Positions 24,564-57,925 of a stretch of 64,000 nt of DNA are shown in pieces. Numbering within the stretch: the first letter of the stretch is position 1; each line of letters begins with the position of its first letter. The notes under the pieces are model-generated. The model was not told the DNA's origin. It searched no databases and worked only from the letters and a program-made list of their open reading frames with translations. Source of the DNA: Bacteroidales bacterium (GTDB lineage Bacteria; Bacteroidota; Bacteroidia; Bacteroidales; UBA932); assembly GCA_017428245.1 (NCBI GenBank), contig JAFRRF010000041.1, forward strand, positions 1 through 64,000, in the 5' to 3' direction. The position numbers and the translations under genes were made by a program.

Positions 24564-25760
24564 ATGCTTACACTATCCAAAAAGGCGCAGGCCATGCCCG
24601 CCTCTCCCATCCGCAAACTCGTTCCCTTTGCGGATGCCGCCAAGAAACGCGGAATAAAAGTCTATCACCTCAATATCGGTCAACCGGACATCGAATCGCC
24701 GAAAGAGGCACTCGACGCAGTGAAGAACAACCAGCTGAAAGTGGTCGCCTATGCCAAGAGCGGCGGCAACGATTCGCTCCGTGAAGGCCTTGCCCGTTAT
24801 TACAAGGGAATCGGCATCGACGTGGAGGCTGCGGACATCAATATCACCAACGGCGGCAGCGAGGCCCTGCAGATCGCCCTTTCGGTGACCTGCGATCCCG
24901 ACGACGAGGTGATCGTCTTCGAGCCTTTCTATACCAATTACAACTCCTTCGCGCTCCAGAACGACGTGAAGCTCGTGCCCATCACCACGCATATCGAGGA
25001 CGGTTTCGCCCTTCCTCCGATGAGCGAGGTGGAGAAACGCATCACTCCGAAGACCAAGGGTGTGGTGATCTGCAACCCCGGCAACCCGACGGGCTGTCTC
25101 TATTCAAAGGAATCGCTCCTGGAACTCGGTGAGATCGCGAAAAAATACGGTCTCTTCATTTTCGCCGACGAGGTGTACCGCGAATTCTGCTATACCGACG
25201 CGCCGCACTTCTCGTGTATGCACATTCCCGGACTGGAGCAGAACGTCATCCTGCTGGACTCCGTGTCGAAGCGCTACAGTCTCTGCGGCGCCCGCATCGG
25301 CTATCTCGTGTCCCGCAACAAGGAAGTGATGGCCGCCGTAATGCGTTACGCCCAGGCCCGTCTCTGCTCGCCTTCCTACGGCCAGATTGCCGCGGAAGGA
25401 GCACTGGATGCGCCGGCCGCCTATTTCAAGGCTGTGCGTGACGAGTACATCCATCGCCGCGACGTGCTGATTGACGGCCTGCAGAAAATGAAGGGCGTGG
25501 TGGCTCCCCGCCCGATGGGCGCTTTTTACGCCGCCGCCCAGCTGCCGGTCGACGATTCCGAGAAGTTCGCCAAGTGGCTGCTCGAGGAGTTCAGCTATAA
25601 CGGCGAGACCGTGATGGTGGCCCCGATGGCCGGCTTCTATGCCACGCCGGGACTGGGCCGCAACCAGATCCGCCTGGCCTATGTGCTCAAGGAAGAAGAC
25701 CTGCGTCACGCGCTGGTCTGCCTGGAGAAGGCCCTCGAAACCTATCCCGGCCGGGTGTGA
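24564..25760 (+). CDS. Pyridoxal-phosphate aminotransferase, class I/II (aspartate aminotransferase-like)
   Basis: This 398-residue fold-type I aminotransferase probably transfers amino groups between aspartate or another amino acid and 2-oxoglutarate. Visible family marks are LNIGQPDIESP, NGGSEALQIAL, CNPGNPTGCLYS, FADEVYREFCY and the PLP lysine in SVSKRYSLCGARIGY, with RLAYV near the C-terminus (substrate arginine). It has no signal and is cytoplasmic. It follows dacB closely and precedes the SusC gene by 26 bp, but is probably not functionally part of that locus. Substrate preference cannot be fixed. Confidence 0.9.
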   Translation: MLTLSKKAQAMPASPIRKLVPFADAAKKRGIKVYHLNIGQPDIESPKEALDAVKNNQLKVVAYAKSGGNDSLREGLARYYKGIGIDVEAADINITNGGSEALQIALSVTCDPDDEVIVFEPFYTNYNSFALQNDVKLVPITTHIEDGFALPPMSEVEKRITPKTKGVVICNPGNPTGCLYSKESLLELGEIAKKYGLFIFADEVYREFCYTDAPHFSCMHIPGLEQNVILLDSVSKRYSLCGARIGYLVSRNKEVMAAVMRYAQARLCSPSYGQIAAEGALDAPAAYFKAVRDEYIHRRDVLIDGLQKMKGVVAPRPMGAFYAAAQLPVDDSEKFAKWLLEEFSYNGETVMVAPMAGFYATPGLGRNQIRLAYVLKEEDLRHALVCLEKALETYPGRV

Positions 25761-25786
25761 ATCGAATCAAACCAATCTTACGATAT

Positions 25787-28744
25787 ATGAAGAAATTATT
25801 AATCATTGCGCTGATGGCGTTGTCCTGCTTCTCGTTGTCGGCGCAGAACCGGGTGACCGGCAAGGTCACTTCTTCGGAGGATGGAGGCCCCATCCCCTTT
25901 GCCAGCATCGCGGTGAAGGGAACGATGACGGGCACTTCGTCGGACGCCGATGGTAACTACGTCCTGCAGGGAGTGCCATCCGGAGCCACCCTGGTGTTCT
26001 CCTCCATCGGTTTCAAGGATCTGGAGGTCCTGGTCAGCGGCCGGAACGTCATCGACGCCGTGCTTGTTCCGGACGTGGATGTGTTGGAAGAGACCATCGT
26101 CGTCGCATATGGCTCCGCCAAGAAGATCAGCTCGGTGGTCGGCGCTTCGACACTCGTCAAGTCCGACGCTTTCACCAAGATTCCGGCGGCCAGTGCCGGT
26201 GACGCCCTTCAGGGAAAAGTAGCCGGTCTGCAGGTCTATACCAGTTCCGGTGAGCCTAGTGCAACGGTCTCGATGCGTCTGCGCGGTGTCAATTCGATCA
26301 ATGCTTCGAATACGCCGCTGTTCATCCTCGACGGCTCGCCGGTAGATGTCTCTATCTTTACGGCGTTGAATCCCAACGATATCGAAAATGTGACGGTGAT
26401 GAAGGACGCTTCCTCCACCGCCATTTACGGTTCCCGTGCCGCCAACGGCGTCGTGTACATCACGACCAAGAGGGGGACCGGTGAAAAGCCGACCGTGACG
26501 GTCAGCGGATCCTACGGTATTTCGAATCTGGCGCAGTTCCCGATGCAGCTGATGAACGCCGAGGAGTGGTTCGCCTTCCGCGAATTGGCTGACCCGAGCC
26601 TCAAGGAAAATGCCCAGTTCCAGGAACTCAAGGACTTCCGTCTCAAGAACCATATCGAGACCGACTGGCGCGAATGGATCCTCAACGAGAATGCCCCGAC
26701 CTGGAAGGCTGACCTGAGCGTTTCCGGCCGGAGCCAGCGCAGCGACTACTACTTCTCGCTGGGCGCCTTCAACCGCCAGGGTATCGAACCGTATTCCGAT
26801 ATGGAACGCTACTCGATCCGCTCGAACGTCAGCAGCAAGATCGCTTCCTGGCTGAGGATCGGCGTCAACCTGAACCTGACCTGGCAGTCGCATCATACGG
26901 CAGGCTATTCGACGACGAGCACGGGCTATTACAACCCGATGAACATTGTCGCCTGGGGACTCCCGTACGCCACGCCGTATGAGATCATCACCGACGAAAA
27001 CGGCAATTTCAAGGGATATGGCGAAGAGCCGGACTACATCACCGACCTGGGTATGTGGAACTATTTCCGCCGGATGGAAGCACAGCCGACGAAGCGGACG
27101 AACGCCCGCCTGCACGGCAACCTCTTCCAGGAGATCACTCCGTTCAAGGGCTTTACCCTTCGTGCCGTGCAGGCCATCGAGGGATCGGACTACCGCTATA
27201 CCGGCAAGGTCCTGCCCAACAAGATCAATCTGGCGACCGTCACGGAAGAATCGTTCGAGCGCTTCTACCGCCTGACTTCCACCAACACGGCGGAGTACAA
27301 GTTCGCGATTGCGGAAGACCATCACTTCGTGCTGCTGGCCGGCCATGAATCGATCTACTCGAACGACGAGTACTTCTCCACCTGGACGAACGGCCAGACC
27401 GACGAACGCCTGACCAACGTCAACCACGGTACGCAGGCCAATCTCCCGTCGTACACGTTCTCCGAAGTGGCCTACAACTCCTTCTTCTCCCGGCTTTCCT
27501 ACGATTATGCCGACAAGTATTTCCTCGACGCGACCTACCGTATCGACGGCTCCTCGCTCTTCGGCGCGAACCGCCGCTACGCCAGCTTCTGGTCGGTGGG
27601 CCTGATGTGGAATATCGGCAAGGAGAAATTCATGCAGAATGTCGACTGGATCGACAACCTCCAGATCAAGGCCTCCTATGGTACGATGGGTAACTCGGGC
27701 ATCAGCAATTACCTCGCATACGGTCTGACCTCCACGGGCCGTCTCTATGACGGGCAGACTTCCTGGTATATGGCTTCGCTGAGCAATCCGAACCTGACCT
27801 GGGAAACCCTCGAGGCACTCAATGCCGGCATCAACGGCCGTCTGTGGAACCGCTTGAATTTCAATGTGGAGTTCTACAACAAGAACACGAAGGACATGTT
27901 GATGTACATCCCGTACTCCTACATTTCCGGCTTCTCCGGCGGTTGGGGCAACGTGGGTTCGATGCGCAACCGCGGCGTCGACGTCGAACTCAAGCTCGAC
28001 GTGGTCAATACCCGCGACTGGTATTTCGGCCTGGGCTTCAACATGAACTACAACAAGAACGTCATCACCGAACTGTATGACGGCCGCGACGAGTTCGTGG
28101 ACGGCAGTTCCGGCCTGAAGTTCCAGGTGGGCCACGCCTATGGCGAATTCTTCCTGGTGGACTTCGCCGGTGTCGACCCGGCCAACGGCAAGTCGCTCTG
28201 GCGCAACGCCGACGGTTCGCTGACCAGCACCTACACGGAGAGCAACGCCGTGTTCCTCGGCAAGAACCGTTTCGCTCCCTGGTCGGGCGGCGCCTCGGTC
28301 GATGCCAGCTGGAAGGGCCTCTCTTTCAACGCCACGTTCTCGGGCGTGTTCGGCAAGTATATGGAGAACTACGACCGCTACTTCGTGGAGAACCCCGCTT
28401 TTGCCGACGAGTCGAACATGACCAAGCGTATGATGAATATCTGGACGACGCCCGGCCAGATCACCGACATCCCGAAGGCCGGTGAGGCTGTCCGGCACGA
28501 CAGCCGCTTCATCGACAATGCCTCGTTCGTGCGACTGAAGAACGTCCAGATCGCCTATGAATTCCCGAAGGCGCTGATGAAGCGCACGGGCTTCATCGGC
28601 GGTGCGAAGATCTATGTGTCCGGCCGTAACCTGCTTACCTTTACCAAGTATACAGGTTGGGACCCGGAAATCGACGCTATCACGGCTATGGGTAACTATC
28701 CGAACACGAAGCAGTTTGTCTTCGGCGCCGAGTTGACTTTCTAA
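25787..28744 (+). CDS. SusC/RagA-type TonB-dependent outer-membrane transporter
   Basis: This is a 985-residue transporter that moves large oligomers across the outer membrane with a SusD lid. After the signal peptide (MKKLLIIALMALSCFSLSAQ) come a carboxypeptidase-regulatory-like domain (about residues 20-100), the link DVLEETIVVAYGSAKK, a plug domain with SINASNTPLFILDGSPVD, and a barrel of about 750 residues ending KQFVFGAELTF. There is no STN domain, so it is not built for trans-envelope anti-sigma signalling. The start at 25787 is chosen to begin the signal. It heads the amino-sugar locus that continues to 44985. Confidence 0.95.
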   Translation: MKKLLIIALMALSCFSLSAQNRVTGKVTSSEDGGPIPFASIAVKGTMTGTSSDADGNYVLQGVPSGATLVFSSIGFKDLEVLVSGRNVIDAVLVPDVDVLEETIVVAYGSAKKISSVVGASTLVKSDAFTKIPAASAGDALQGKVAGLQVYTSSGEPSATVSMRLRGVNSINASNTPLFILDGSPVDVSIFTALNPNDIENVTVMKDASSTAIYGSRAANGVVYITTKRGTGEKPTVTVSGSYGISNLAQFPMQLMNAEEWFAFRELADPSLKENAQFQELKDFRLKNHIETDWREWILNENAPTWKADLSVSGRSQRSDYYFSLGAFNRQGIEPYSDMERYSIRSNVSSKIASWLRIGVNLNLTWQSHHTAGYSTTSTGYYNPMNIVAWGLPYATPYEIITDENGNFKGYGEEPDYITDLGMWNYFRRMEAQPTKRTNARLHGNLFQEITPFKGFTLRAVQAIEGSDYRYTGKVLPNKINLATVTEESFERFYRLTSTNTAEYKFAIAEDHHFVLLAGHESIYSNDEYFSTWTNGQTDERLTNVNHGTQANLPSYTFSEVAYNSFFSRLSYDYADKYFLDATYRIDGSSLFGANRRYASFWSVGLMWNIGKEKFMQNVDWIDNLQIKASYGTMGNSGISNYLAYGLTSTGRLYDGQTSWYMASLSNPNLTWETLEALNAGINGRLWNRLNFNVEFYNKNTKDMLMYIPYSYISGFSGGWGNVGSMRNRGVDVELKLDVVNTRDWYFGLGFNMNYNKNVITELYDGRDEFVDGSSGLKFQVGHAYGEFFLVDFAGVDPANGKSLWRNADGSLTSTYTESNAVFLGKNRFAPWSGGASVDASWKGLSFNATFSGVFGKYMENYDRYFVENPAFADESNMTKRMMNIWTTPGQITDIPKAGEAVRHDSRFIDNASFVRLKNVQIAYEFPKALMKRTGFIGGAKIYVSGRNLLTFTKYTGWDPEIDAITAMGNYPNTKQFVFGAELTF

Positions 28745-28760: not shown

Positions 28761-30266
28761 ATGAAAAAGATATTATTCAGTCTTTGCACCCTTGCAATGA
28801 TGCTCGTGTCGGCCTGCAACCTTGATCTGAAGCCGACCAGTTCCATCTCGACGGACGAAGCGCTCCGTTCGATGGACGATGCCCAGAAACTTCGCCGCGA
28901 CCTTTATATCACGATGCGCAACAGCCTGACTTCGGGCGCTCCGGTCTACCTGATGGAGCTGATGTCCGATTCGTTCCACGGCTCCATCACCTATGGTAAC
29001 CGCAACGGCGAGTACTACAAATGGGAGATGCGCTCCACGTTCGGCAATGTCGAGTCCCTTTGGGAGAGCGCCTATTATCTCGTGATGCTGGCCAATTTCC
29101 TGGAAGAGGGGATTCCCGCCCTTCAGGCGGAAGCCACCGCGGCTGAGAAAGCGCAGTACGACGTGATTCTGGGAGAATGTGCCTTCTCCAAGTCCTATGC
29201 GATGTTCATCCTTACGGAACTCTTCTGCAAGAACTATTCGTCCAACGCCTCGAGCGACTACGGCGTGATGCTGTCGGACAAGACGTTTGCCACACCGAGC
29301 GAACAGGCTACCTATGTGGGGCGCAGTTCGCTGTCCGAGACCTACGAATACATTGAGCGTAATCTCGCCAAGGCGGAACAGTTGCTTGCCTCCGTCACGG
29401 GTTCGGAAGGATCGATCTATCTGACGGTCGATGCGGTCAAGGCAATGGAAGCCCGCGTGGCCCTGACCAAGGGCGACTACGCCAAGGCGGCCGGCCTGGC
29501 AGCGGCCCTTTGCGACGGCGGACGCTATCCGCTGCTCAACACGCAGGACGATTTCACCGCCCTGTGGACCAACGACAGCGGCAAGGAATGCATCACCCAG
29601 TTCTGGTCGAGCATTCTTTCCAATGCCAATACCAATGACTATGGCTACATCCAGTTCACCGGCGGTCTCTATGCGCCGAACTACATTCCGGAGAAATGGA
29701 TCGTGGACTCCTACGACAAGAACGACCTCCGTTTCACGACCTGGTTCCGCCGCACGCAGGTGAACCTGGGCAATTTCTCGGGTACGGTCTATCTCTGCTT
29801 CAAGTTCCCCGGCAACCCGGAACTGATGTCTTCGACAGGCGCATCGACCTATACGCACAAGATCAAACCGTTCCGCATCGCGGAGCAGTACCTGATCGCA
29901 GCCGAGGGTTTTGCGCAGGCAGGCCAGGCCGAGCAGGCCTGTACATACCTGAACCGCCTCCGTGCCAGCCGTATTCCGGGTTATGCAGACCGTCACTACA
30001 CGGGTGAAGAACTGATGACCCAGATCAAACTGGAGCGGGCACGGGAACTCTATGGTGAAGGTTTCCGCTTCAAGGACCTCAAGCGCTGGAACCAGGGCTT
30101 CGCCCGCAGCGAGGCGCAGGACAAGAACCTGGTCATCGATGCGAACAGCACCTATACGGAGCTGATGAGCCGCGATGCTTCCGATCCGTTCTTCGTGTGG
30201 CCCATCCCGCAGGCCGAGATCGATTCCAATCCGCAGATCCGCGGTCAGCAGAATGCCGGTTATTAA
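28761..30266 (+). CDS. SusD/RagB-type surface glycan/oligomer-binding lipoprotein
   Basis: This is a 501-residue SusD-like lipoprotein that forms the lid on the preceding SusC. The signal ends LVSAC with lipidation at residue 19, followed by LDLKPTSSISTDEALRS. Helical TPR-like regions follow (AYYLVMLANFLEEG, ARVALTKGDYAKAAGLAAAL), then the conserved C-terminal pattern QIKLERARELYGEGFRFKDLKRW and FFVWPIPQAEIDSNPQI. Spacing of 16 bp from susC and 18 bp to the next gene indicates one transcript. The bound ligand is unknown; the downstream enzymes suggest an amino-sugar oligomer. Confidence 0.94.
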   Translation: MKKILFSLCTLAMMLVSACNLDLKPTSSISTDEALRSMDDAQKLRRDLYITMRNSLTSGAPVYLMELMSDSFHGSITYGNRNGEYYKWEMRSTFGNVESLWESAYYLVMLANFLEEGIPALQAEATAAEKAQYDVILGECAFSKSYAMFILTELFCKNYSSNASSDYGVMLSDKTFATPSEQATYVGRSSLSETYEYIERNLAKAEQLLASVTGSEGSIYLTVDAVKAMEARVALTKGDYAKAAGLAAALCDGGRYPLLNTQDDFTALWTNDSGKECITQFWSSILSNANTNDYGYIQFTGGLYAPNYIPEKWIVDSYDKNDLRFTTWFRRTQVNLGNFSGTVYLCFKFPGNPELMSSTGASTYTHKIKPFRIAEQYLIAAEGFAQAGQAEQACTYLNRLRASRIPGYADRHYTGEELMTQIKLERARELYGEGFRFKDLKRWNQGFARSEAQDKNLVIDANSTYTELMSRDASDPFFVWPIPQAEIDSNPQIRGQQNAGY

Positions 30267-30284: not shown

Positions 30285-31691
30285 ATGAAAAAGTTACTTA
30301 TATCCATATCCGTATTGATGGCGGCGCTCTTCGCCCTCGTTTCCTGCGAGCAGACCAGCTACATCTATGAGCCGACCAACGAGTGTCTGACGTTCAGTTC
30401 CAACGGCGGAGCCTGGCTCTTTACCGACGAGCCCGTGATCGAGTTCCAACTCGTCCGTGGTGTGATCAATACCGACCTGACGGTTCAGCTGAATCTCAGC
30501 GGCGACGGCCTGTTCTCGCTCGAGACGCCGGCCCAGGTCCATTTCAGTCCCAACGAATCGACGGCGACAATCCGTGTCGGCTATGATGCCGAACAGGCCG
30601 AGGAGGGCGAGTCCTACAGTTTCACGGTTTCGTTCGACGAGGCGAAAGTCTCGCCGGCCGGCTGGAACGTTTTCGCAGGCACCTTGACGATGCCGGGCGG
30701 TGACGATTCGGAATTCGTGGACTATGCTACGGTCGAATTCTATCAGGGCAAGATGAATTCCAGCGTCGAACTCTACGACGAGCAGTACTCTACCCTGCAG
30801 GTCTCCAAGTTCGACAAGACCAAGTACCGCATCGTCAACGCGATGAACTCGGGCATCGACCTCGACTTCACGCTGGGTTCCGACGGCGTGGTCTATCTGC
30901 TCAACGAGACGACGTTGTGCCCGTACGACGAGGAACAGTACATCAAGGTCCCGAGCACCATCGAGTACGAGGGCGAACTGGTCACCTTCTGGATCGACCC
31001 GAACCCGAAGTACAACAAGGTGGACGCCAACATCGGTACCGGCGAGTACACGATGGACCTGACGGATGACGGCGGTACGTCGATCACCTGGTATGTCTGG
31101 ATGGAGACCGCTTCGCGGGGCATCCTGACCTTCGGCGACGGCGACGACGGCTGGTGGCGTATGTACTACGACGTAGTCAACCTCAACCCGCGTCCGAACC
31201 CCGACCTCGATTATATGAAGCTGGGCAAGGTGGAGTTCTACCAGAGCAAGATGAATGCGAGCGTCACCTCCGAGAAGGTGCTGCATTCCCTGTTGCTGGT
31301 CAACAAATACGACCCTGCCAAGTTCCGTATCAAGAATGCGATGAACTCGGGTATCGACCTCGACCTGACGATTTCCGCCGACGGTGTGGTCTATCTGCTC
31401 AACGAGACGACGTTCTGCCCGTACGACGAAGAGATGTACATCAAGATCCCGAGTACGATCGAGTATGAAGGTGAAAGGGTGACCTTCTGGATCGACCCGA
31501 ATCCGAAGTACAACAAGGTGGCCGAAAACATCGGTACCGGCCCGTATCTGATGGATATGACGCCCGACGGCGGTACGTCGATCACCTGGTATGTCTGGAT
31601 GGAGACCGCTTCGCGGGGCATCCTGACCTTCGGCGACGGCGACGACGGCTGGTGGCGTATGTACTACGACGTAACCGAAGTCTATTACTAG
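30285..31691 (+). CDS. Surface lipoprotein with two near-identical tandem domains
   Basis: This is a 468-residue lipoprotein in the SusE/SusF position. The signal ends LVSC (C20 or C21 region), and residues about 25-145 form an all-beta N-terminal domain. Two copies of a domain of about 148 residues follow, starting at residues 150 and 316 (VEFYQ...KMN), with a 166-residue (498-bp) period. Both contain NAMNSGIDLD, VVYLLNETT, CPYDEE and FWIDPNPKYNKV, and both end GDDGWWRMYYDV. DNA identity reaches 108 bp unbroken (31068-31175 and 31566-31673). It probably binds the target polymer on the surface. No named family is recognised with certainty. Confidence 0.8.
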   Translation: MKKLLISISVLMAALFALVSCEQTSYIYEPTNECLTFSSNGGAWLFTDEPVIEFQLVRGVINTDLTVQLNLSGDGLFSLETPAQVHFSPNESTATIRVGYDAEQAEEGESYSFTVSFDEAKVSPAGWNVFAGTLTMPGGDDSEFVDYATVEFYQGKMNSSVELYDEQYSTLQVSKFDKTKYRIVNAMNSGIDLDFTLGSDGVVYLLNETTLCPYDEEQYIKVPSTIEYEGELVTFWIDPNPKYNKVDANIGTGEYTMDLTDDGGTSITWYVWMETASRGILTFGDGDDGWWRMYYDVVNLNPRPNPDLDYMKLGKVEFYQSKMNASVTSEKVLHSLLLVNKYDPAKFRIKNAMNSGIDLDLTISADGVVYLLNETTFCPYDEEMYIKIPSTIEYEGERVTFWIDPNPKYNKVAENIGTGPYLMDMTPDGGTSITWYVWMETASRGILTFGDGDDGWWRMYYDVTEVYY

Positions 31692-31693
31692 CG

Positions 31694-34600
31694 ATGGGAA
31701 GGATTGGCGCAAAGTTCTGGGCAGCCTGCCTGCTGCTGGCGGCGCTCCTTTCCTGCACGCCGGAAGGTGAACGGTATCTCTGCAACTACCGGGTTGCAGA
31801 GATATCGACCACCGACAGTACCGTCCTGGCCGGTTTCGCGGCCAGGAACGGGCTGTCGGACGGCGTCCACCGCGACCTGATGAGCCATTGCCTGGTGCTT
31901 CAGAAGAACGGCGAAAAGATCTGCATCATCTCCAACGACCTGATGGAGGTCGGCATCGAGACGGCCGACGAGATTCGGAAAGCGATTTCCGAACAGTCGG
32001 GCCTGCCGATGGACCACATCCTGATGCACTGCATCCACACGCATTCCGCACCGCGGACCGGCGGGTGGTGCGCCGAGGAAGGCAAGCCCAACTACGCGTA
32101 CGCGCAGAAGGTACGCCGCGTGGTGGTGGAGAACGCCGTGGCGGCGATCACCGACGATGCGGCGTTCCGTCCCTTCGAGATGGAGTACGGCCAGGGCACG
32201 AGCGATATCAACTACAACCGTTGCGACAAGGACGGCTTCTGCAACAAGGACGCCTACGTGCTGAGGCTGGTTGACCCGAAGAGCCGCAAGCCCATCGTGT
32301 CGATGGTCAATTATTCGTGCCATCCGGTGAGCCTCGGCCCCGGCAGTTACAAGGTCTCGACCGATTTCCCCGGATTCTCCTGCGATTCGCTCGCGAAGGC
32401 CTGGGGCGGGGAAGTGGTGCACTTTACGTCCGCCAGCGGCAACGCCGACCCGGCCTACGGCATCAAGAAGGATGTCGAAGCCGCCGAGCGGAACGGCTGG
32501 CAACTGGCCACCGACCTGAAAGACATCTCCTTCCGGAAGATTCCCTTCGACGGGAGCTTTACCTTGAAAACCAGCCGGATCGACTTGCCGTACCGGGCCG
32601 ACACCATTACGGTCGACCTGATCCGTCAGCACGTGGCCGAGGTTACGCAGTGGAAGAACACGGTCTCCGCCTCGTGGGTGGATGATGTGAACTACTGGGC
32701 CAAATACACCATCGAAGACATCGAGGCCGGCCTGGTGGAGAACACGCTCCCGTTCTATGTGGAGGCGGTCAACCTGGGCGGCGTCGTGCTTTTCTTTACA
32801 CAGGGCGAACCGTTCATGGAGTATAAAGTGGCCCTGCGCGAACGTTTTCCGGATACCCCGCTGCTGTTCATCGCCTACACCAACGGCCAGAATTCCTATC
32901 TGCCGAGCAAGACGGCTTTCGAAGACACGAGCGGAAAGTACGATTATGAGGTCAAACAGATGCACGTCTATATCGGCGCCCCGTATCCGCTGTCCGAGCG
33001 GATGCCCGACGTCTATCTCGACGGCATCACCGACATCGTACGGGAAGTCCTTCAGCCCGAAGAAAGCGGACTGACATCTTCTATCATCCCCAAGCCCCTT
33101 CACTTCGAAGGGGCTTCGGGTTGTTTTTCTTTCGAAAAAGGCGGCGCCGTGGCCGTGGAAGCCACGGACCCGCTTTTCCGCGAGGTCGCGGACGATTTCG
33201 CCGCGACCCTCCGGCTGCCCGTCGCTGAGGCGGGCAGCGTCATTATCCGGCAGGTGGACGGCCTCGCGACCGAGGCCTACCGGCTGACCGTTTCCCCGGA
33301 AACCGTCATCATCGAGGCTTCCGCCCCCAACGGGGCTTTTTACGGCACGCGGAGCCTGCTCCAGCTGCTTCCGCCGCAGGCTATGCAGCGCGGCGCCCTC
33401 GGCTGCACCGTGCCCTGCTGCCGCATCGACGATGCGCCCGCGATGGAATACCGGGCCATCATGGCCGACGTGGCGCGCCATTTCCAGCCCAAGGAAGAGA
33501 TCGAGAAAGTAATCGACATCCTGGCGCTGCACAAGATCAATACCTTCCACTGGCACCTGACCGACGATCAGGGCTGGCGGATTGAAAGCAAGAAATATCC
33601 TCTCCTGGTGAAAGCCGGGCCCTATTATACACAGGAAGACCTTCGTGAGGTGGTGGAATACGCCCGCCGCCGCTATGTGACGGTCGTGCCGGAAGTCGAA
33701 CTTCCCGGCCACGCCCTGGCCGCCCTGTCGGCCTATCCCGTCTTTTCCTATCATCCCGATTCGACGATCGCCATCGCGACCGATCTGGGCATCTACGACG
33801 AAATCTTCTGTCCGAGCGACACCACCTATACATTCTTTACCGATATCTTCGGCGAACTCTTCGACATCTTCCCGTCGAAGTACTACCACATCGGCGGCGA
33901 CGAATGTCCGCCCGACGACGGCAGCCAGGCCGCTTTCATCGTCCGCATCACGGAATTCCTCCAGGCCCACGGCAAGGAGGTGATCGCCTGGGACGAAGTG
34001 GTGGACCGCGGCGCCACGCCCGGCACCATCGCGCTCTCGTACCGCGGTCACGCGCCCGGCAAGAAGGCGCTGGACAAAGGCATGCGGACGGTCTTCACCC
34101 CGAACCGCTGGTGCTACCTCGACTATTACCAGGAGGAGGGCGACGGGTATCCGTCGCAGCCGTATTTCCTTCCCCTTTCCAAAGTATATAACTATTATCC
34201 GGTCAGCGATACGGTCGCCGCGTCGGTGCGGCCGCGCATTCTGGGTGTCGAGGGCTGTCTCTGGACCGAATTCGTGGAGACGCCGGAGCATTTCGAACAT
34301 ATGCTTTTCCCCCGTGCCCTGGCGCTGGCCGAGACGGGCTGGACGCCCAAATACGACCGGGATTATGCCGATTTCTGCCGCCGGCTCGTGGCCGGCCTGC
34401 CGCGGCTTGACGATGCCGGCATCCATTACAGCCGGGCTTTCGAAAACGTGCTCTTCATGCACGATGATTTCGAAGAAGACCGCTACGACAACGACCGGCT
34501 GAATCTCCGGCTCGATTATCCCGATGCGGAAATCCGCTATACCACCGACGGTTCCGTCCCGACTCGTCAGTCCCTCCTTTATACGGGGCCGGCCGGCCGG

Positions 34601-36247
34601 ATTGCGCCCGGGACGACCGTCCGGGCGCAGGGCTTCGACCGGCGTACGGGGAAGAAAGTCGGCCAACCCGTCGAAAAGACCTTCGGCATCGCCGGCCTGC
34701 TGCCGCAGCCGGAGAAAGTCGAGGTCCGCAAGGGAACCTTCCGCCTGCGTCCTTCGACCACCGTGACGGTCGAAGACGGCGACAGCAGCTTTGTGTCGCT
34801 GGTCAACTACCTGACCGGTCGCGTCGACCTGCGCGTGGCGGAGACCGCTCCCGAGAAGAACTATCTGAAGATCCGCAAAGGCCGCAACAACATCCCCCGC
34901 GAAGGCTATGTGATGGAGGTCGCGCCCGAGGGCATCACCATCTGGTGCACCGCCCCCAACGGGGCGTTCTATGCCCTCCAGACGCTGTTCCAGCTGATGC
35001 CCAACGCTGTCTATGCCGGCCGCTTCTCCGGCAAGGCCGACATCCCCTGCTGCCGCATTGAAGATTCGCCCCGCTTCGAATACCGGGGCATGCACCTCGA
35101 CGTCTGCAGCCATTTCTTCGGGGTGGATTTCATCAAGAAATACCTCGATGAACTGGCCATGCACAAATTCAACGTGTTCCACTGGCACCTGACCGAAGAC
35201 CAGGGCTGGCGCATCGAGATCAAAAAATATCCGAAACTGACCGAAAAAGGCTCCGTCCGGCCATATACGGTGGTGGGCGACCTGCATTCCCCGATCAACG
35301 ACGGGACGCCCCACGGCGGCTTCTACACGCAGGAAGAGATCCGCGAAATCGTAAGGTATGCCGCGGATCGGTATATCACCGTGCTGCCCGAAATCGAGAT
35401 GCCGGGCCACGCACGCGCCGCCATCACCTGTTTCCCGGAGTTGAGCTGTTTCCCCGAACAGGAACATTCGCTGGCTACCAAATGGGGCATTTTCCGCGAC
35501 GTGTACTGTCCCCGCGAAGAGACCTTCGCCTTCCTGGAAGACGTGCTTACGGAAGTGATGGAACTCTTCCCTTCGCCGCTGATCCACATCGGCGGCGACG
35601 AGTGTCCGAAATACAATTGGGAGCACAGCGAATTCTGCCAGCAACTGATGCGACGGGAAGGGCTGAAGAACGAGGAGGAACTGCAGAGCTGGTTCATCCG
35701 CCGCATCGAGCGTTTCCTCAACAGTAAGGGCCGCAACATCATCGGCTGGGACGAGATCCTGCAGGGCGGTCTGGCACCGAACGCGGCCGTCATGTCGTGG
35801 CTTGGCGAGCAGGGCGGTATCGCGGCGGCGCGGCAGCACCACAACGTGGTGATGTGTCCGTACCAACGCTATTATCTCGACTATTATCAGGTCGATCCCA
35901 CGGAAGACGCCATCTCGATGGGCCATCTGGTTCCGTTGAAGGTGGTCTACGACTATGAGCCGGTGCCGGCCGTCCTCACGGAAGAGGAGCAGGAATACAT
36001 CATCGGCGTGGAGGGGACGGTCTGGACGGAATACATCAAAAATCCGGCGCGGGCCGAGTACATGGCCTTCCCGCGTGCCCTGGCCATCGCCGAGGCGGGC
36101 TGGACCCGCGGCCACGCGAAGGATTTCGAAGGGTTTACACAGCGGATGGAACGCCATTTCGCGCGCCTGGACGCCGCCGGTGTCAACTATTGCAGGAATT
36201 GGAATGTAACAGCATATCAAGATGAGACTTACGGAACAGCCTTCTAA
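31694..36247 (+). CDS. Multidomain lipoprotein: ceramidase-like domain, GH20, chitobiase C-terminal-like domain, second GH20
   Basis: This 1517-residue protein has a signal ending LLSC. Residues about 25-455 resemble neutral ceramidases: HTHSAP (H115, H117), NYSCHP, GEPFMEY and YTNGQNSYLP offer the zinc ligands, but the nucleophile position reads SGNADP (D252, where a serine is expected). From about 465 comes a complete GH20 hexosaminidase with HWHLTDDQGW and HIGGDE (D736, E737). A chitobiase C-terminal-like segment (IRYTTDGSVPT, about 947) follows. A second complete GH20 starts at about 1000, with HWHLTEDQGW and D1302/E1303. Both GH20 units should release terminal GlcNAc/GalNAc. The 3' end overlaps murQ by 26 bp. 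The continuous frame shows a true fusion. Confidence 0.88.
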   Translation: MGRIGAKFWAACLLLAALLSCTPEGERYLCNYRVAEISTTDSTVLAGFAARNGLSDGVHRDLMSHCLVLQKNGEKICIISNDLMEVGIETADEIRKAISEQSGLPMDHILMHCIHTHSAPRTGGWCAEEGKPNYAYAQKVRRVVVENAVAAITDDAAFRPFEMEYGQGTSDINYNRCDKDGFCNKDAYVLRLVDPKSRKPIVSMVNYSCHPVSLGPGSYKVSTDFPGFSCDSLAKAWGGEVVHFTSASGNADPAYGIKKDVEAAERNGWQLATDLKDISFRKIPFDGSFTLKTSRIDLPYRADTITVDLIRQHVAEVTQWKNTVSASWVDDVNYWAKYTIEDIEAGLVENTLPFYVEAVNLGGVVLFFTQGEPFMEYKVALRERFPDTPLLFIAYTNGQNSYLPSKTAFEDTSGKYDYEVKQMHVYIGAPYPLSERMPDVYLDGITDIVREVLQPEESGLTSSIIPKPLHFEGASGCFSFEKGGAVAVEATDPLFREVADDFAATLRLPVAEAGSVIIRQVDGLATEAYRLTVSPETVIIEASAPNGAFYGTRSLLQLLPPQAMQRGALGCTVPCCRIDDAPAMEYRAIMADVARHFQPKEEIEKVIDILALHKINTFHWHLTDDQGWRIESKKYPLLVKAGPYYTQEDLREVVEYARRRYVTVVPEVELPGHALAALSAYPVFSYHPDSTIAIATDLGIYDEIFCPSDTTYTFFTDIFGELFDIFPSKYYHIGGDECPPDDGSQAAFIVRITEFLQAHGKEVIAWDEVVDRGATPGTIALSYRGHAPGKKALDKGMRTVFTPNRWCYLDYYQEEGDGYPSQPYFLPLSKVYNYYPVSDTVAASVRPRILGVEGCLWTEFVETPEHFEHMLFPRALALAETGWTPKYDRDYADFCRRLVAGLPRLDDAGIHYSRAFENVLFMHDDFEEDRYDNDRLNLRLDYPDAEIRYTTDGSVPTRQSLLYTGPAGRIAPGTTVRAQGFDRRTGKKVGQPVEKTFGIAGLLPQPEKVEVRKGTFRLRPSTTVTVEDGDSSFVSLVNYLTGRVDLRVAETAPEKNYLKIRKGRNNIPREGYVMEVAPEGITIWCTAPNGAFYALQTLFQLMPNAVYAGRFSGKADIPCCRIEDSPRFEYRGMHLDVCSHFFGVDFIKKYLDELAMHKFNVFHWHLTEDQGWRIEIKKYPKLTEKGSVRPYTVVGDLHSPINDGTPHGGFYTQEEIREIVRYAADRYITVLPEIEMPGHARAAITCFPELSCFPEQEHSLATKWGIFRDVYCPREETFAFLEDVLTEVMELFPSPLIHIGGDECPKYNWEHSEFCQQLMRREGLKNEEELQSWFIRRIERFLNSKGRNIIGWDEILQGGLAPNAAVMSWLGEQGGIAAARQHHNVVMCPYQRYYLDYYQVDPTEDAISMGHLVPLKVVYDYEPVPAVLTEEEQEYIIGVEGTVWTEYIKNPARAEYMAFPRALAIAEAGWTRGHAKDFEGFTQRMERHFARLDAAGVNYCRNWNVTAYQDETYGTAF

Positions 36248-37046
36248 GTACGACAACTTGGAAAAGAAATCCGTGATGGAGATCATTACGGACATCAACA
36301 ACGAAGACAAGACGGTGGCCTATGCCATCGAAAAAGTGCTGCCCGACCTGGAGCGGCTCATAACGGCGATTGAAAAGCAACTGAAGGCAGGCGGCCGGAT
36401 GTTTTACGTCGGCTGCGGCACCGGCGGCCGCCTCTCGGTCCTCGACGTCGTGGAACTCCCCAATACCTACGGTATCGATCCGGAAATGATCCAGACGGTC
36501 CTGGCCGGCGGTGTGGAGAACCTGGTCCTGGCCCTGGAAGAGGCCGAGGACGACATCGAGGAAGGCTGGCGCACGCTGGTGGAGAAACACCACGTCACCC
36601 CGAAAGACATCGTGGTCGGCATCTCGGCCAGCGGCACGACGCCCTATGTGCTCCATACCCTGCGGCATTGCCGGGAAAACGGCATCCCGACCGGCAGTTT
36701 CGTCAACAATCCGCAGTCGCCTATTTCGGAATACTCCGACTATCCCGTCGAGGTGATCACGGGCACGGAATACATCACGGGCAGCACCCGGATGAAATGC
36801 GGCACGGCCCAGAAGATGATCTGCGACATGATCAGTTCGACTGTCCTGATCCGGCTGGGCCGGATCGAGGGTAACCGCATGGTCAACGTCCGCCTGATCA
36901 ACGACAAGGTGGTGGACCGTTCCGTGCGGATGTTCATGGAACGCAATCCATCGATTACGGACTACGATTACGTGAAGGAGATCATTGTCAAGACGGGCAC
37001 TGTCAAGAAAGCGGAAGCCTATCTCAAGGAAAAAGGAGAACTATGA
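36222..37046 (+). CDS. murQ: N-acetylmuramic acid 6-phosphate etherase
   Basis: This 274-residue cytoplasmic SIS-domain enzyme cleaves the D-lactyl ether of MurNAc 6-phosphate to give GlcNAc 6-phosphate. Visible marks are the start RLTEQPSKYDNLEKKSV, FYVGCGTGGRLSVLD (sugar-phosphate loop), GISASGTTPYV, and GSTRMKCGTAQKM, equivalent to the GSSRLKAGTAQK signature of E. coli MurQ. Length is slightly below the usual 298. The start overlaps the GH20 fusion gene and the stop overlaps the kinase gene as ATGA, so translation is coupled. It commits the locus to lactyl-ether sugars, which occur in peptidoglycan. Confidence 0.95.
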   Translation: MRLTEQPSKYDNLEKKSVMEIITDINNEDKTVAYAIEKVLPDLERLITAIEKQLKAGGRMFYVGCGTGGRLSVLDVVELPNTYGIDPEMIQTVLAGGVENLVLALEEAEDDIEEGWRTLVEKHHVTPKDIVVGISASGTTPYVLHTLRHCRENGIPTGSFVNNPQSPISEYSDYPVEVITGTEYITGSTRMKCGTAQKMICDMISSTVLIRLGRIEGNRMVNVRLINDKVVDRSVRMFMERNPSITDYDYVKEIIVKTGTVKKAEAYLKEKGEL

Positions 37047-37882
37047 TTCTGATTGCAGACAGCGGCGCCACCACCACCACGTGGTGTGCCCTGGACCGCG
37101 GCGCGGTCGTGACACAGTTTGAGAGCGAAGGATACAATCCCAACTACATCACGCTCGACTATATGGTGGCCGATATCCGCAAGGCCCTTCCGGCGGACTT
37201 CGACCCGCGGACCGTGGATCACGTTTATTTCTACGGTGCGGGCGTGACGGAACTGCAGTACGGCTTCGTCCGCGAGGCGATCGCGCAGGTGATGCCGGAT
37301 GCGGAGATCTTCGTGGCAATGGACCTGCTGGCCTCCGCACGGGCCCTGCTCGGCCGTAAGCCCGGCTTCGCAGCCATCCTGGGCACAGGGACCAACAGTT
37401 GCCTGTACGACGGAGAGCGGATCACGCTCAACATCGATTCACTGGGCTTCATCCTCGGTGACGAGGGAAGCGGTGCCTATATGGGCAAGCGTATGCTCGT
37501 CGATTACGTACGGGGCCGGGTCTCCGACGAGGCGCGCCGTGTGATCGAAGCGTCCGTTCCCTACAACGGCGACGAAATCATCGACATCATCTACACCAAG
37601 CCGTTCCCGAACCGTTTCTGCGGGCAGTACGGCAAACTGATTCACGACAATCTGGCCATTCCGTATTTCCACGACCTGGCCGAAGATTCGTTCTGCCAGC
37701 TGTTCGAGCAGATCATCTCCCTGTACCCGGACTACCGGTCCTACGCGTTCAACTGCGTGGGCTCGGTCGGATGGTATTTCCAGGATGTGCTCCGTCCGGT
37801 CGTCGAACGCTACGGGATGCGCATAGGTAATCTGCTGCGCACTCCGATGGAAGGGCTGATCCGTTATCATCGGGAGGACTAG
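37043..37882 (+). CDS. murK: BadF/BadG-type sugar kinase, probably MurNAc kinase
   Basis: This 279-residue actin-fold (ASKHA) kinase resembles N-acetylglucosamine kinases. Motifs are ADSGATTTTW (phosphate 1), AAILGTGTNSCLYDG (phosphate 2 region), GFILGDEGSGAYMGKR and CVGSVGWYF (adenosine region). Its position between murQ and a sugar transporter matches the murTKQ operon described in Tannerella forsythia, where MurK phosphorylates MurNAc. By that analogy it supplies MurNAc 6-phosphate to MurQ. Activity on GlcNAc is also possible. It overlaps murQ by 4 bp. Confidence 0.85.
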   Translation: MILIADSGATTTTWCALDRGAVVTQFESEGYNPNYITLDYMVADIRKALPADFDPRTVDHVYFYGAGVTELQYGFVREAIAQVMPDAEIFVAMDLLASARALLGRKPGFAAILGTGTNSCLYDGERITLNIDSLGFILGDEGSGAYMGKRMLVDYVRGRVSDEARRVIEASVPYNGDEIIDIIYTKPFPNRFCGQYGKLIHDNLAIPYFHDLAEDSFCQLFEQIISLYPDYRSYAFNCVGSVGWYFQDVLRPVVERYGMRIGNLLRTPMEGLIRYHRED

Positions 37883-37885
37883 GCG

Positions 37886-39079
37886 ATGGCAGGCAGAAAA
37901 TACGTCCTTCCGCTCTGCTTCATCGGCATGATGTTTTTCACGGTCGGGTTCGCGACCGGCATCAACGGCTATTTTGTGCCGTTCCTGGAGAACAATCTTC
38001 ACTTGACTTCTTCGCAGAGCTACCTGGTCATCGCCGCGACGTTCATCGCCTTCCTGGTATTCAGTTTTCCGGCTGCGTCCATCATCGGGAAGATCGGTTA
38101 CAGGAAGACCATGGCGCTGGCCTTTTTCCTTTTCGCCTGCGCGTTCGCCCTGTTCATCCCTGCGGCGCGGCTGGCGAGTTTCGCGCTCTATCTGCTGGCC
38201 TGCTTCCTCAGCGGCGTGGCCAATACCATCCTGCAGGCCGCCATCAATCCGTATGTCACGATCCTGGGCCCGATCGACAGCGCCGCCCGGCGGATCAGCA
38301 TCATGGGCATCTGCAACTCGCTGGCCCTGGGCCTGCCTTCCGTGTTCATCGCCGCGGTGACCCGCAAGAGCATCGACAGTGTCGTGCTGGCCGACCTGGA
38401 CCGGCCGTTCTGCATCATCATTGCCGCCGTCGTGCTGCTGGGCGTGCTGACGCTCTTCGCTCCGCTTGAGGAAATCAAGGCGGAAGGGGAGGAACACGAG
38501 GAGGATTGTCCGTATGCGGCCGGAAAGAAGTCGGTGTGGCAGTTCCCGCATCTGGTGCTGGGCGCACTGGCCCTGTTCGTCTATGTGGGCGTGGAGAACC
38601 TGGCCCTGCTGACCGTTTTGGATTATGCCCAGGACCTGGGCCTCTCCGATCCGGAAAAGTACACCGTTTTTCCGGGTATCGGGATGGCGGTCGGCTATAT
38701 CATCGGCATCATTCTGATACCCAGGTATATCTCGCAGGTGACGGCCCTTCGGGCCTGCACCTGGCTGGCAGTCGTCGACTCACTGGCGATCGTACTTGCA
38801 CCGCCTTCCGTTTCGATCTGGTGCGTGGCTTTCCTGAGCCTGGCCTGTTCGCTGATGTATCCGGCCATCTGGCCCCTTGCCATCACGGAACTCGGCAAGT
38901 TCACCAAGAAGGGCTCTTCCCTGCTGGTGGCCTCCATCGGCGGCGGCGCCCTGATTCCGCTGCTTTTCGGCGCTTTGAAGGATGCCGTCGGCAGCCAGTC
39001 CGCCTACTGGATTTGTCTGCCGTTCTATCTGTTGATTATGTACTATGCCTACCGGGGCTATAAGATCCGCACAAAATGA
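37886..39079 (+). CDS. MFS sugar transporter, FucP/NagP type (probable MurNAc importer)
   Basis: This 397-residue inner-membrane protein has about 12 membrane segments. It has the FucP/NagP style: MMFFTVGFATGINGYFVPFLENNLHLTSSQSY at the start, and GVANTILQAAINPYVTILGP in the middle. Such permeases import fucose, GlcNAc or glucose with protons. Its place after murQ and the MurK-like kinase matches murT of Tannerella forsythia, so MurNAc or its disaccharide is the likely cargo. It begins 3 bp after the kinase stop and overlaps the next gene by 4 bp. Confidence 0.85.
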   Translation: MAGRKYVLPLCFIGMMFFTVGFATGINGYFVPFLENNLHLTSSQSYLVIAATFIAFLVFSFPAASIIGKIGYRKTMALAFFLFACAFALFIPAARLASFALYLLACFLSGVANTILQAAINPYVTILGPIDSAARRISIMGICNSLALGLPSVFIAAVTRKSIDSVVLADLDRPFCIIIAAVVLLGVLTLFAPLEEIKAEGEEHEEDCPYAAGKKSVWQFPHLVLGALALFVYVGVENLALLTVLDYAQDLGLSDPEKYTVFPGIGMAVGYIIGIILIPRYISQVTALRACTWLAVVDSLAIVLAPPSVSIWCVAFLSLACSLMYPAIWPLAITELGKFTKKGSSLLVASIGGGALIPLLFGALKDAVGSQSAYWICLPFYLLIMYYAYRGYKIRTK

Positions 39080-41580
39080 AAAGACTGTTTTACGTTTTCC
39101 TTGTCCTGCTTTTATCGGCGGTTCCCGTCATTGAAACGGAGGCCTGCACGACGGCCATTGTCTCGGCAGGCGCCAGTGCTTCGGGCCGGCCGTTGATCTG
39201 GAAACAGCGTGACACCGACAATCCGCACAATGTCGTGCAGTACGTCACGGGTGGAAAGTACGCCTACACGGCCATATTCAACGCATCCGACAAGAAGCGC
39301 AGGAGCGCCTATGCCGGCGCCAATGATGCGGGCTTCGTCATCATGAACAATCTTTCCTACAACCTGGCCGAAGAAACCTATTCTTCCGTGGTGAACGGGC
39401 GTGTCATCTCCGAAGCGCTCGCCACGTGCAGTACGCTGGAGGAATTTGAACGGATGCTGGAGGAATGGCCGAAGCCCCGCAACATCGAGGCGAATTTCGG
39501 CGTGGCCGATGCTTTCGGCGGCGCCGCCTATTTCGAGGTGGGCGATACGAAGGTGGTCCGTTTCGACGTGGAACCGGGCGGTTGGCTGGTGCGCACCAAC
39601 TTCTCGCTTGCGGGCCGGGACGGGGAGGGCTCCGGCATGGCACGCTATGAAACGGCGGAGTACCTGATGTCGCAGCACACCGGCAAGTTCACCCCGGAAT
39701 TCCTGATCGACGGGCTGGGACGCAGTTTCTATAACGCGGAGCTGGGTGCCGATATGCTGGCGGCGTCGCCGGCCGGCGTGGCGGTGGACCTGGATTTCAT
39801 TCCGCGCTATACGTCGGTGTCGAGTGTCTGCATCGAGGGTGTGGGATCCGGTGACGATCCAGCTTCCGCCGTACTCTGGACAGCTGTCGGTTATACGCCC
39901 TGTTGTTATGCGGTTCCGGTATGGGTGGCGGCCGGCTCAGACATTCCGTCGTTCCTTCTGCCGGAGGAAGGGTCGGAGAAAGGTTATGCCGCCGCCAATG
40001 TGCTCGCCGAAGAGTTGCTGCACTACGTCCATCCGGCCGACCGCGATGCCAAAGAGAAATATATCGATTTCCGCCGTCTGCAGCCCATCCTGCAGACAGT
40101 CCGCAAAGCAGAGGCCGTGGAGATGACGGCGGGCCGTGAACTCGACCGCCGGATGCATCGCACGGGCTTCGATGCCGATGCTGTCAGCCGCTATAACCGG
40201 GAAGCGGAAAGCCGCTTCGCCGCTTTCCGGGCCGCCATGGATCCGAAAGCGCTGGAACAGGCCTTCCAAGGTCCCGTGCGGCACCAGTCTGTGACGCCGG
40301 ATATGCTGGACCGTCTTGCCGCAAAGGCGAAGGACGTCCCGGACCGGGTCGGCGACCGTTTTCTGACGCAGGATCTGTACAAGGCTTCGCTCAAGGAGGC
40401 CGTCGCCGCGGCGATGGATACGACGTGCACGTATTTTGTTCCCTCGCGCGGCATTACCGACCAGGACGAGTCGGGCCGCTGCTGGCTTTTCTCGACGCTC
40501 AACATCCTGCGCGCTGAGATGATCGCCCGCTACGATCTGGGCCCGTTCCAGTTTTCGCAGACCTTCGGCCAGTTCTACGATATCCTGGAGAAGGCCAACC
40601 GTTGCCTGGAAAATGTCATCACCCATCGCAATGAGCCGATGGAAAGCCGCTACAACACCTGGCTCTTCAACAAGCCGATCGGCGACGGCGGCCATTTCGC
40701 CAATGCGGCCCACATCATCGCCAAATACGGCATGGTGCCGCAGGAGGTGATGCCCGAACGTTTCAGCAGCACCGACAATGTGTCGCTGATGAAGACCGTC
40801 ACGCGGCTGCTCCGCCGCTACGGCCTCGAGCTGCGCGATGCTTCTGCCGAAGAGATTCAGACCGTGAAGGAGCAGGCCCTGGCCGACATCTACCGCCTGC
40901 TGGTCGCCACGCTGGGCGAACCGCCGCAGGAATTCGACTATACGCTGCGCGACAAGAACGGCCGCGTGCTCTCGGTGGCGCATTATACGCCGCAGTCGTT
41001 CCGCGATATCTATATTCCGCACGACCTGGAGGCCGACTACGCCATCTTTATGGACGATCCCACGCTGCCGTATTACCGGATGTACGAAGTGGCGGAGAGC
41101 CGCAACTGCTACGAGTTTGCCAACTGGCGCTTCCTGAACGTGCCGATGTCCGACATCCGGAAGATGGGTGTCGCCTCGCTCGCGGGCGGCCGCCGTTTCT
41201 ACATCTCGGCCGATACGATGCACGATTACCTGATGACTGAGGGCATCTATGACACGGAACTCTTCGCGCTGGATTCGCTGCTGGGCATCCGCACCGATAT
41301 GCCGAAGGAAATGCAGGTCCGCAGCGCGGAGACCCGCTCGGTCCACGCCATCGCAGTGGCCGGCGTGAAACTCGACACGGCCGGCGAACCCGTGAAATGG
41401 GTGATCGAGAACAGCTACGGCCTGGTCCGCGGCTGGGGCGGCTACGTGGCCGCCTCCGATCCCTGGCTCCAGAAGTATCTCTACCGTCTGGTCGTGGAGA
41501 AACGCTTCGTGGACGAAGAATTGCTGAAACTCTTTGAAGGGCCGGTCGAAACGCTTCCGGCCTGGTATCCCAATTATTGA
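39076..41580 (+). CDS. Fusion of an Ntn-type acylase (C45/C69-like) and a bleomycin-hydrolase-type cysteine peptidase (C1B)
   Basis: This is an 834-residue exported protein. After the signal peptide, Cys24 starts CTTAIVSAGASASGRPLIW, the N-terminal nucleophile pattern of C45/C69 Ntn-hydrolases, which cleave linear amides after exposure of the cysteine. This domain spans about residues 24-385. Residues about 395-834 are a papain-fold bleomycin hydrolase/PepC: Q463 and C469 (DQDESGRCWLF), H757 (SVHAIAVAG) and N779 (VIENSYG) form a full active site. PepC homologues are usually cytoplasmic aminopeptidases, so an exported, fused form is unusual. The gene overlaps the transporter gene by 4 bp and probably processes peptide or acyl parts of the substrate. 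Confidence 0.85.
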   Translation: MKRLFYVFLVLLLSAVPVIETEACTTAIVSAGASASGRPLIWKQRDTDNPHNVVQYVTGGKYAYTAIFNASDKKRRSAYAGANDAGFVIMNNLSYNLAEETYSSVVNGRVISEALATCSTLEEFERMLEEWPKPRNIEANFGVADAFGGAAYFEVGDTKVVRFDVEPGGWLVRTNFSLAGRDGEGSGMARYETAEYLMSQHTGKFTPEFLIDGLGRSFYNAELGADMLAASPAGVAVDLDFIPRYTSVSSVCIEGVGSGDDPASAVLWTAVGYTPCCYAVPVWVAAGSDIPSFLLPEEGSEKGYAAANVLAEELLHYVHPADRDAKEKYIDFRRLQPILQTVRKAEAVEMTAGRELDRRMHRTGFDADAVSRYNREAESRFAAFRAAMDPKALEQAFQGPVRHQSVTPDMLDRLAAKAKDVPDRVGDRFLTQDLYKASLKEAVAAAMDTTCTYFVPSRGITDQDESGRCWLFSTLNILRAEMIARYDLGPFQFSQTFGQFYDILEKANRCLENVITHRNEPMESRYNTWLFNKPIGDGGHFANAAHIIAKYGMVPQEVMPERFSSTDNVSLMKTVTRLLRRYGLELRDASAEEIQTVKEQALADIYRLLVATLGEPPQEFDYTLRDKNGRVLSVAHYTPQSFRDIYIPHDLEADYAIFMDDPTLPYYRMYEVAESRNCYEFANWRFLNVPMSDIRKMGVASLAGGRRFYISADTMHDYLMTEGIYDTELFALDSLLGIRTDMPKEMQVRSAETRSVHAIAVAGVKLDTAGEPVKWVIENSYGLVRGWGGYVAASDPWLQKYLYRLVVEKRFVDEELLKLFEGPVETLPAWYPNY

Positions 41581-41593
41581 TCCTTTCCGCCCT

Positions 41594-45569: not shown

Positions 45570-45655
45570 CGAAAAAAACGGAAAAATAGGTCCGGTCCGG
45601 GTGTCCTTTTCGGGGGACATTGCGTTTATATAACAAACCTATCCTTTTTTATCCT

Positions 45656-46831: not shown

Positions 46832-46850
46832 TACAACCAAATACCGATCG

Positions 46851-50048: not shown

Positions 50049-50060
50049 CACGACTGCCTT

Positions 50061-51875: not shown

Positions 51876-51877
51876 TC

Positions 51878-53257: not shown

Positions 53258-53267
53258 TCTTATCAAT

Positions 53268-56048: not shown

Positions 56049-56057
56049 AGGGCTTGT

Positions 56058-57920: not shown

Positions 57921-57925
57921 GGAAG

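Follow-up and report, generated by a model that had tools for sequence, protein, structure and literature searches.

What is the role of a lipoprotein in which a domain with the fold of neutral ceramidases is joined to two complete GH20 glycosidases? The question is raised by a gene in the stretch of DNA analysed here, from a Bacteroidales bacterium that has relatives in the ruminant gut (contig JAFRRF010000041.1, positions 1 to 64,000; these 64,000 nucleotides are called the window), where one open frame (31694..36247; this and all other features lie on the plus strand unless stated) encodes 1517 amino acids. We propose that this gene is a natural fusion of three genes within an operon of the SusCD type whose products salvage a glycan with muramic acid, most probably peptidoglycan fragments (muropeptides), and give this reading a probability of roughly 0.45. 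The fusion runs into the gene of a MurQ-type etherase, and such an arrangement is direct genetic evidence that the two share a pathway.

A natural fusion of three units

The fusion is directly supported by the single open frame, by domain matches and by the sequences of relatives. It begins with a lipoprotein signal peptide recognised by eye, with the lipobox LLSC up to Cys21 (31694..31756), which bears out the lipoprotein proposed in a preliminary description of this gene. Then follow the neutral-ceramidase-fold domain (hereafter CER; residues 26-460, 31769..33073), identified by sequence alignment and fold comparison, a first GH20 unit (GH20-1; residues 461-920, 33074..34453), a CHB_HEX_C_1 domain found by domain match that separates both GH20 units (residues 931-984, 34484..34645), and a second unit (GH20-2; residues 986-1517, 34649..36244). 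Both GH20 units were delimited by domain match and alignment and include a GH20b domain. An antisense frame of 1540 codons (31688-36310, minus strand) is also open across the entire fusion gene and is probably a codon-usage shadow; the length of a frame alone hence proves nothing here.

Relatives were sought by a scan of genome contigs (best 80 of 107 kept) and by searches at the level of the order (393 genomes) and of the family (199 genomes). In 14 distinct genomes a close CER is linked to GH20, G454, G439, G422 and G527 being counted once with L009, L010, L011 and L013, with which they have an exact 2-kb core in common. All three units stand in a single frame in five genomes (the window and L008-L011), so that the uninterrupted frame, its domain content and its order are as first described, and the same order of domains exists elsewhere both fused and as separate genes. 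Three genomes (G494, G505, G569) have CER fused to GH20-1 with GH20-2 as the adjoining gene, and five have separate genes: CER and two GH20s in L013, G483 and G501, and CER with a single GH20 seen in G395 and G583. In G501 the stop codon of CER is followed directly, and in frame, by the start of GH20-1. In the remaining genome, L012 (5362-8307), GH20-1 is missing and CER is fused to GH20-2, which may reflect a true deletion between paralogues or an assembly collapse.

In the CER tree the unfused L013 is sister to the triple fusions, represented there by the window and L008, and the fusions of CER with GH20-1 share another clade with the unfused G501 and G483. Because fused and unfused genomes intermix, the tree indicates that fusions (or splits) arose more than once. 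Whether they come from fused or unfused genomes, the GH20-1 units group in one clade (11 rows; support of 100 in the Shimodaira-Hasegawa-like approximate likelihood ratio test, SH-aLRT) and the GH20-2 units in another (14 rows, SH-aLRT 99), which includes the single GH20s of G395 and G583. The order CER, GH20-1, GH20-2, MurQ, fused or not, is conserved across genera and is complete in the window, L008-L011, L013, G494, G501, G505 and G569, together 10 of the 14 genomes. Three others have MurQ in the fetched stretch with variant orders (L012 without GH20-1, G395 with one GH20, and G483 with MurQ-MurK upstream on the opposite strand), and in G583 the contig ends just past the GH20 and cuts the locus.

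When the window was compared with four fused relatives, the ratio of nonsynonymous to synonymous substitution rates (dN/dS) was 0.03-0.05 in CER, 0.09-0.16 in GH20-1, 0.055-0.087 in GH20-2 and 0.06-0.20 in the linker. As these values are low in every segment, the whole fusion is under purifying selection, GH20-1 being less constrained than CER and GH20-2. This higher dN/dS, two shortened loops in GH20-1, which nonetheless has the GH20 fold, and the lack of this unit in L012 are the observations that would suit an assembly or gene-calling artefact or a GH20-1 in decay, explanations that we regard as exceedingly improbable.

Linkage to a specialised etherase and kinase

The gene that overlaps the end of the fusion by 26 bases (36222..37046) encodes, by profile match and alignment, a specialised N-acetylmuramic acid (MurNAc) 6-phosphate etherase, here called MurQ', and is followed by that of a specialised BadF-type sugar kinase, MurK' (37043..37882). 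MurQ' scores 296.4 bits with profile PRK05441 (cut-off 168), stays below the cut-offs of the equivalog TIGR00274 (249 against 302) and of PRK12570 (254.4 against 255), and matches solved MurNAc 6-phosphate etherases (4s12 and 4lzj, E 3.7e-55 and 7.5e-52). MurK' is homologous to Tannerella forsythia MurK (8ow9, with MurNAc, E 5.7e-57; 8oqw, E 1.7e-57).

The linkage of CER to MurQ' is observed directly. Among the 199 family genomes, CER was found at E below 1e-100 in 12 and distant CERs in 11 more, and a MurQ 68-100% identical to that of the window occurred in 11 genomes, all of them among the 12; the twelfth is G583, the locus cut by a contig end. Some MurQ is present in 107 of the 199 genomes, the remaining 104 copies being 41-51% identical, and such a copy is also carried by 8 of the 11 genomes with MurQ'. 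None of 22 housekeeping MurQ loci that we chose from these 104 has a CER, and no CER lies within the stretches fetched around three further MurQ genes from elsewhere in the class (51-58% identical).

The pair is also distinguished by its own signatures. The segment TSGRLG..DASExPPT of ordinary MurQs is not found in MurQ', which has GTGGRLSVLDVVELPNTYG with the Glu kept. All ten aligned CER-linked MurQs read [TS]GG[RK]L.V(L/M)D..E(L/V)PNTYG, and another locus, L198, nearly the same (PTTYG); the 22 housekeeping MurQs read TSGRLG..DASEIPPT(F/Y)G without exception. In the kinases, the residues NPNY (NPCY in L153), AMD and DS occur in six of six aligned members of MurQ'-CER operons and in none of 24 other MurQ-adjacent kinases (22 from the family and 2 from other parts of the class). 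Two kinases near CERs lack these residues, the BadF protein of L152 and one of 36% identity in L150, where the CER is of another type. Judging from these signatures, the MurQ'/MurK' pathway looks dedicated.

The MurQ' signature recurs beside two distant CERs that bear a propeller-like N-terminal part (L152, L153), with MurK' in one of the two. Such CERs, of about 642 amino acids, are seen at L152:8691-10619, L153:9839-11767 and L154:8800-10725, and at L152 and L153 the operon also encodes MurQ', a DegT-type aminotransferase and a related porter of the major facilitator superfamily (MFS). A different genus of the same family has CERs with a GDQSP motif (L147-L151) next to genes for an amidohydrolase, an FGGY kinase, SIS and TIM-like proteins (Pfam was run on L149 only), a neighbourhood which implies that the CER fold also serves other pathways.

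The active site of the ceramidase-fold domain

The preliminary description likened the first domain to neutral ceramidases and took it for a ceramidase-like amidase. The likeness stands by fold and by sequence-profile homology and falls short by the family profile, since the window protein reaches 25.1 bits with PF04734 against a curated cut-off of 32.1; of its relatives, L121 (44.5), L086 (71.4), L087 (42.4), L107 (42.0), L089 (41.1) and L126 (33.4) pass this cut-off and L106 (24.0) does not. The residues of note in CER are H115, H117, R176, H210, E372, Y402, Y418 and E419. In the alignment CER has counterparts of His97, His99, His204 and Glu411 of the Pseudomonas aeruginosa enzyme 2zws (numbers counted on the alignment), and Arg176, Tyr402, Tyr418 and Glu419 are kept as well. 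We take the metal site of neutral ceramidases to consist of His97, His204, Glu411 and Tyr448, and H115, H210, E372 and Y402 are invariant in 28 chosen CER sequences down to 20% identity. These sequences have ten invariant columns, with few exceptions in a wider set.

The fold and these counterparts are thus shared with neutral ceramidases (P. aeruginosa 2zws/2zxc, human 4wgk), from which CER differs in its muramic-acid gene context, in having no counterpart of the C-terminal part of 2zws past residue 491, and at the position of the catalytic Ser. The catalytic Ser of ceramidases, which we take to be that of the GNxSP/GDxSP motif (GNLSP, chain position 250), is Asp252 in CER (GNADP). The motif GNxDP is found in the GH20-linked CERs of all 14 genomes (21 of 21 rows) and in none of 42 other CER rows, where the same position is Ser in 14 and Asp in two, within a GDxDP motif (L097, L099). 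Because Asp252 replaces the catalytic Ser, the domain, judged by its sequence, is not classed as a ceramidase enzyme, and the activity first suggested for it is not supported.

A genuine ceramidase for glycosphingolipids, in which the GH20s would take off terminal N-acetylgalactosamine or N-acetylglucosamine (GlcNAc) and CER would release sphingosine, is for the same reason very improbable, its Ser being Asp in 14 of 14 GH20-linked CERs, in spite of the ceramidase fold and metal-site residues and of a match of GH20-1 to the Paenibacillus TS12 hexosaminidase 3gh4, which acts on glycosphingolipids. Products of the operon include MurQ, MurK and a peptidase, with no recognisable enzyme of sphingosine use, and Pfam recognised no sphingolipid gene among the scanned neighbours, so the glycosphingolipid option of the preliminary description finds no support either.

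Two GH20 domains with different pockets

Both GH20 domains resemble known beta-N-acetylhexosaminidases in having a GH20b domain and a barrel, the catalytic Asp-Glu pair (D736/E737 in GH20-1, D1302/E1303 in GH20-2) and the checked residues of the -1 subsite (R, D, H, W, Y, D, W, E), with the exception of one motif; they differ from them in being two per polypeptide and attached to CER. The motif SWRG of most relatives, whose Trp position we take to be a residue lining the -1 pocket of the Streptomyces hexosaminidase, is SYRG in 11 of 11 GH20-1 units (Y783 in place of the conserved Trp) and SWLG in 14 of 14 GH20-2 units (L1370 where Arg is usual). In 71 other GH20s, the first of these positions holds Trp in 68 and Tyr in none, and the second holds Arg in 52 and Leu in one. 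Because each lineage altered adjacent residues of one motif, GH20-1 and GH20-2 probably act on two different substrates.

The solved GH20s closest to both domains include BT0459 (6q63), BT4394 (7dup) and Akkermansia Am0868 (7cbn). These are not known as muropeptide enzymes, and this, together with the deviation of MurQ' and MurK' from the housekeeping enzymes, would suit another glycan containing N-acetylhexosamine, of which CER would cut an amide substituent; a 3-O-substituted hexosamine that is not MurNAc would then be the substrate of MurQ'/MurK'. We hold this to be quite unlikely, as the etherase linkage is the strongest signal of the locus and the one reaction known to us for MurQ-type etherases is that on MurNAc 6-phosphate (PMC5061867).

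A model of muropeptide salvage

From this evidence we infer the amide cleavage, the substrate, the division of labour, the metal and the location in the preferred model, muropeptide salvage. Fragments would be taken up by SusC/SusD, and the lipid-anchored fusion protein would act outside the cytoplasm. There CER, probably zinc-dependent, would hydrolyse the amide between the lactyl group of muramic acid and the stem peptide, and the GH20s would work from the non-reducing end, stripping off the 2-acetamido sugars exposed there, their pockets and hence probably their substrates being different. The free sugars would be imported by the MFS porter, the muramic sugar phosphorylated by MurK', and lactate then removed by MurQ'. 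The operon of MurQ, MurK and transporters, a context not given in the preliminary description, favours the lactyl-amide substrate that it suggested; all three domains may, as it also proposed, act on one substrate. The peptidase and GH18 among the neighbours also count for muropeptides.

In Bacillus subtilis the exo-muramidase NamZ was formerly named YbbC. According to the available text of PMC5061867, B. subtilis holds murQ, murR, murP, amiE (a MurNAc-L-Ala amidase), nagZ and ybbC in a single cluster, in which etherase and MurNAc import genes adjoin an extracellular amidase and NagZ, AmiE and NagZ breaking down muropeptides sequentially outside the cell. The gene neighbourhood next to MurQ and an importer would fit processing of the AmiE-NagZ-NamZ kind, and on the simplest reading CER would take the role of the amidase and the GH20 pair that of the exo-glycosidases, in one tethered lipoprotein. 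Unlike that cluster, the window has a ceramidase-fold amidase candidate and GH20 glycosidases, all three in one protein, and its uptake system consists of SusCD, an MFS porter and a kinase in place of a phosphotransferase system. A MurK-type kinase and MurQ also share one operon for exogenous MurNAc in the murTKQ/AmpG system of T. forsythia, where the authors suggest that a strong amidase in the periplasm acts on fragments of this kind (PMC7670621); the available portions of the two papers mention no CER or GH20 pair (PMC10465942, PMC7670621), and the kinase and etherase of the window have other pocket signatures. We found no open-access paper that links a PF04734 protein to cell-wall sugars, and CER is a candidate for a new hydrolase specificity within muramic-acid salvage, for which MurNAc-peptides would be a cheap assay of an unassigned hydrolase clade.

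Several observations, besides Asp252, weigh against muropeptide salvage. Some distant CER relatives have no MurQ beside them and adjoin either FGGY kinase, SIS and TIM-like genes or one for a Gfo/Idh oxidoreductase, so that the CER fold need not mean a muramic substrate, and the 19 kb fetched for L198 contain a MurQ'-type etherase without any CER. Elsewhere in the own genome there are three matches to NamZ and twelve to GH3, which means that exo-muramidase and NagZ-type activities need not stem from the GH20s of the fusion; the genome also has four Amidase_3 matches. The absence of Amidase_2 from it is uninformative, this family being found in 8 of the 199 family genomes. MurQ' reads GTGGR where GTSGR is expected. 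The MurK pocket of T. forsythia is described as F34 and F35 for the N-acetyl group and T94 and S133-P134-L135 for the lactyl group (available text of PMC10465942), positions at which MurK' has, by sequence alignment, N, Y, M and D-S-L, sharing the Leu alone. The second T. forsythia kinase, K1058, likewise deviates at S133-P134 (same text). Since the pocket residues of MurK' and the MurQ' segment deviate, their sugar may be a modified muramic acid and not plain MurNAc, and this second, specialised pair raises the question of which muramic-acid derivative is eaten.

One answer, which we regard as unlikely, is that CER is a de-N-acetylase of an amino sugar (or opens a muramic lactam) and that MurK' and MurQ' are specialised for de-N-acetylated muramic acid. 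Sphingosine is a 2-amino-1,3-diol, which C1-C2-C3 of GlcNAc or MurNAc resembles, and the own genome also retains a second, ordinary MurQ-MurK pair. GH20 catalysis, however, employs the 2-acetamido group of the substrate, so that deacetylation would have to come after glycoside cleavage. Asn34/Tyr35 of MurK' (Cys34 in L153) replace the N-acetyl-pocket Phe34/Phe35 (available text of PMC10465942) in the six kinases against none of the 24, in a pocket that was assigned by sequence alignment alone. A bolder form of muropeptide salvage, to which we likewise accord little probability, would make the GNxDP CERs a new class of muramoyl-amide hydrolases with Asp for Ser and one GH20 exo-acting on muramic residues, a specificity that to our knowledge no GH20 has, the two together forming an exolytic dismantler that feeds a kinase and etherase diverged for a modified muramic acid (de-N-acetylated or derived from the lactam).

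The operon and its surroundings

The plus-strand genes from 24564 to 44985 are spaced by -47 to +18 bases if the earliest possible start codons are assumed. They encode, in order, an aminotransferase, a SusC-like TonB-dependent transporter (25757..28744) and a SusD-like protein (28761..30266), both found by Pfam, a protein of 468 amino acids without a Pfam match over the cut-off (30285..31691), possibly a surface glycan-binding protein, the fusion, MurQ', MurK', an MFS sugar transporter with NagP/GluP-like profile matches (37886..39079), a protein with C45-type acyltransferase/hydrolase and C1B peptidase domains by profile matches (39076..41580), a protein in which Pfam finds a GH18 domain (motif DGLELDWEH) and a GHL10 domain (41534..44041; the true start may be 41594) and, also by Pfam, an N-formylglutamate amidohydrolase-like protein (44011..44985). 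A second SusCD-type group (45620-59050) encodes FecR, SusC, SusD, a DcuC-like carrier, DUF5689, a beta-lactamase-family protein and an amidohydrolase. As AmiE of B. subtilis has the beta-lactamase-family fold, the beta-lactamase-family protein of this group is, by analogy, a further amidase candidate.
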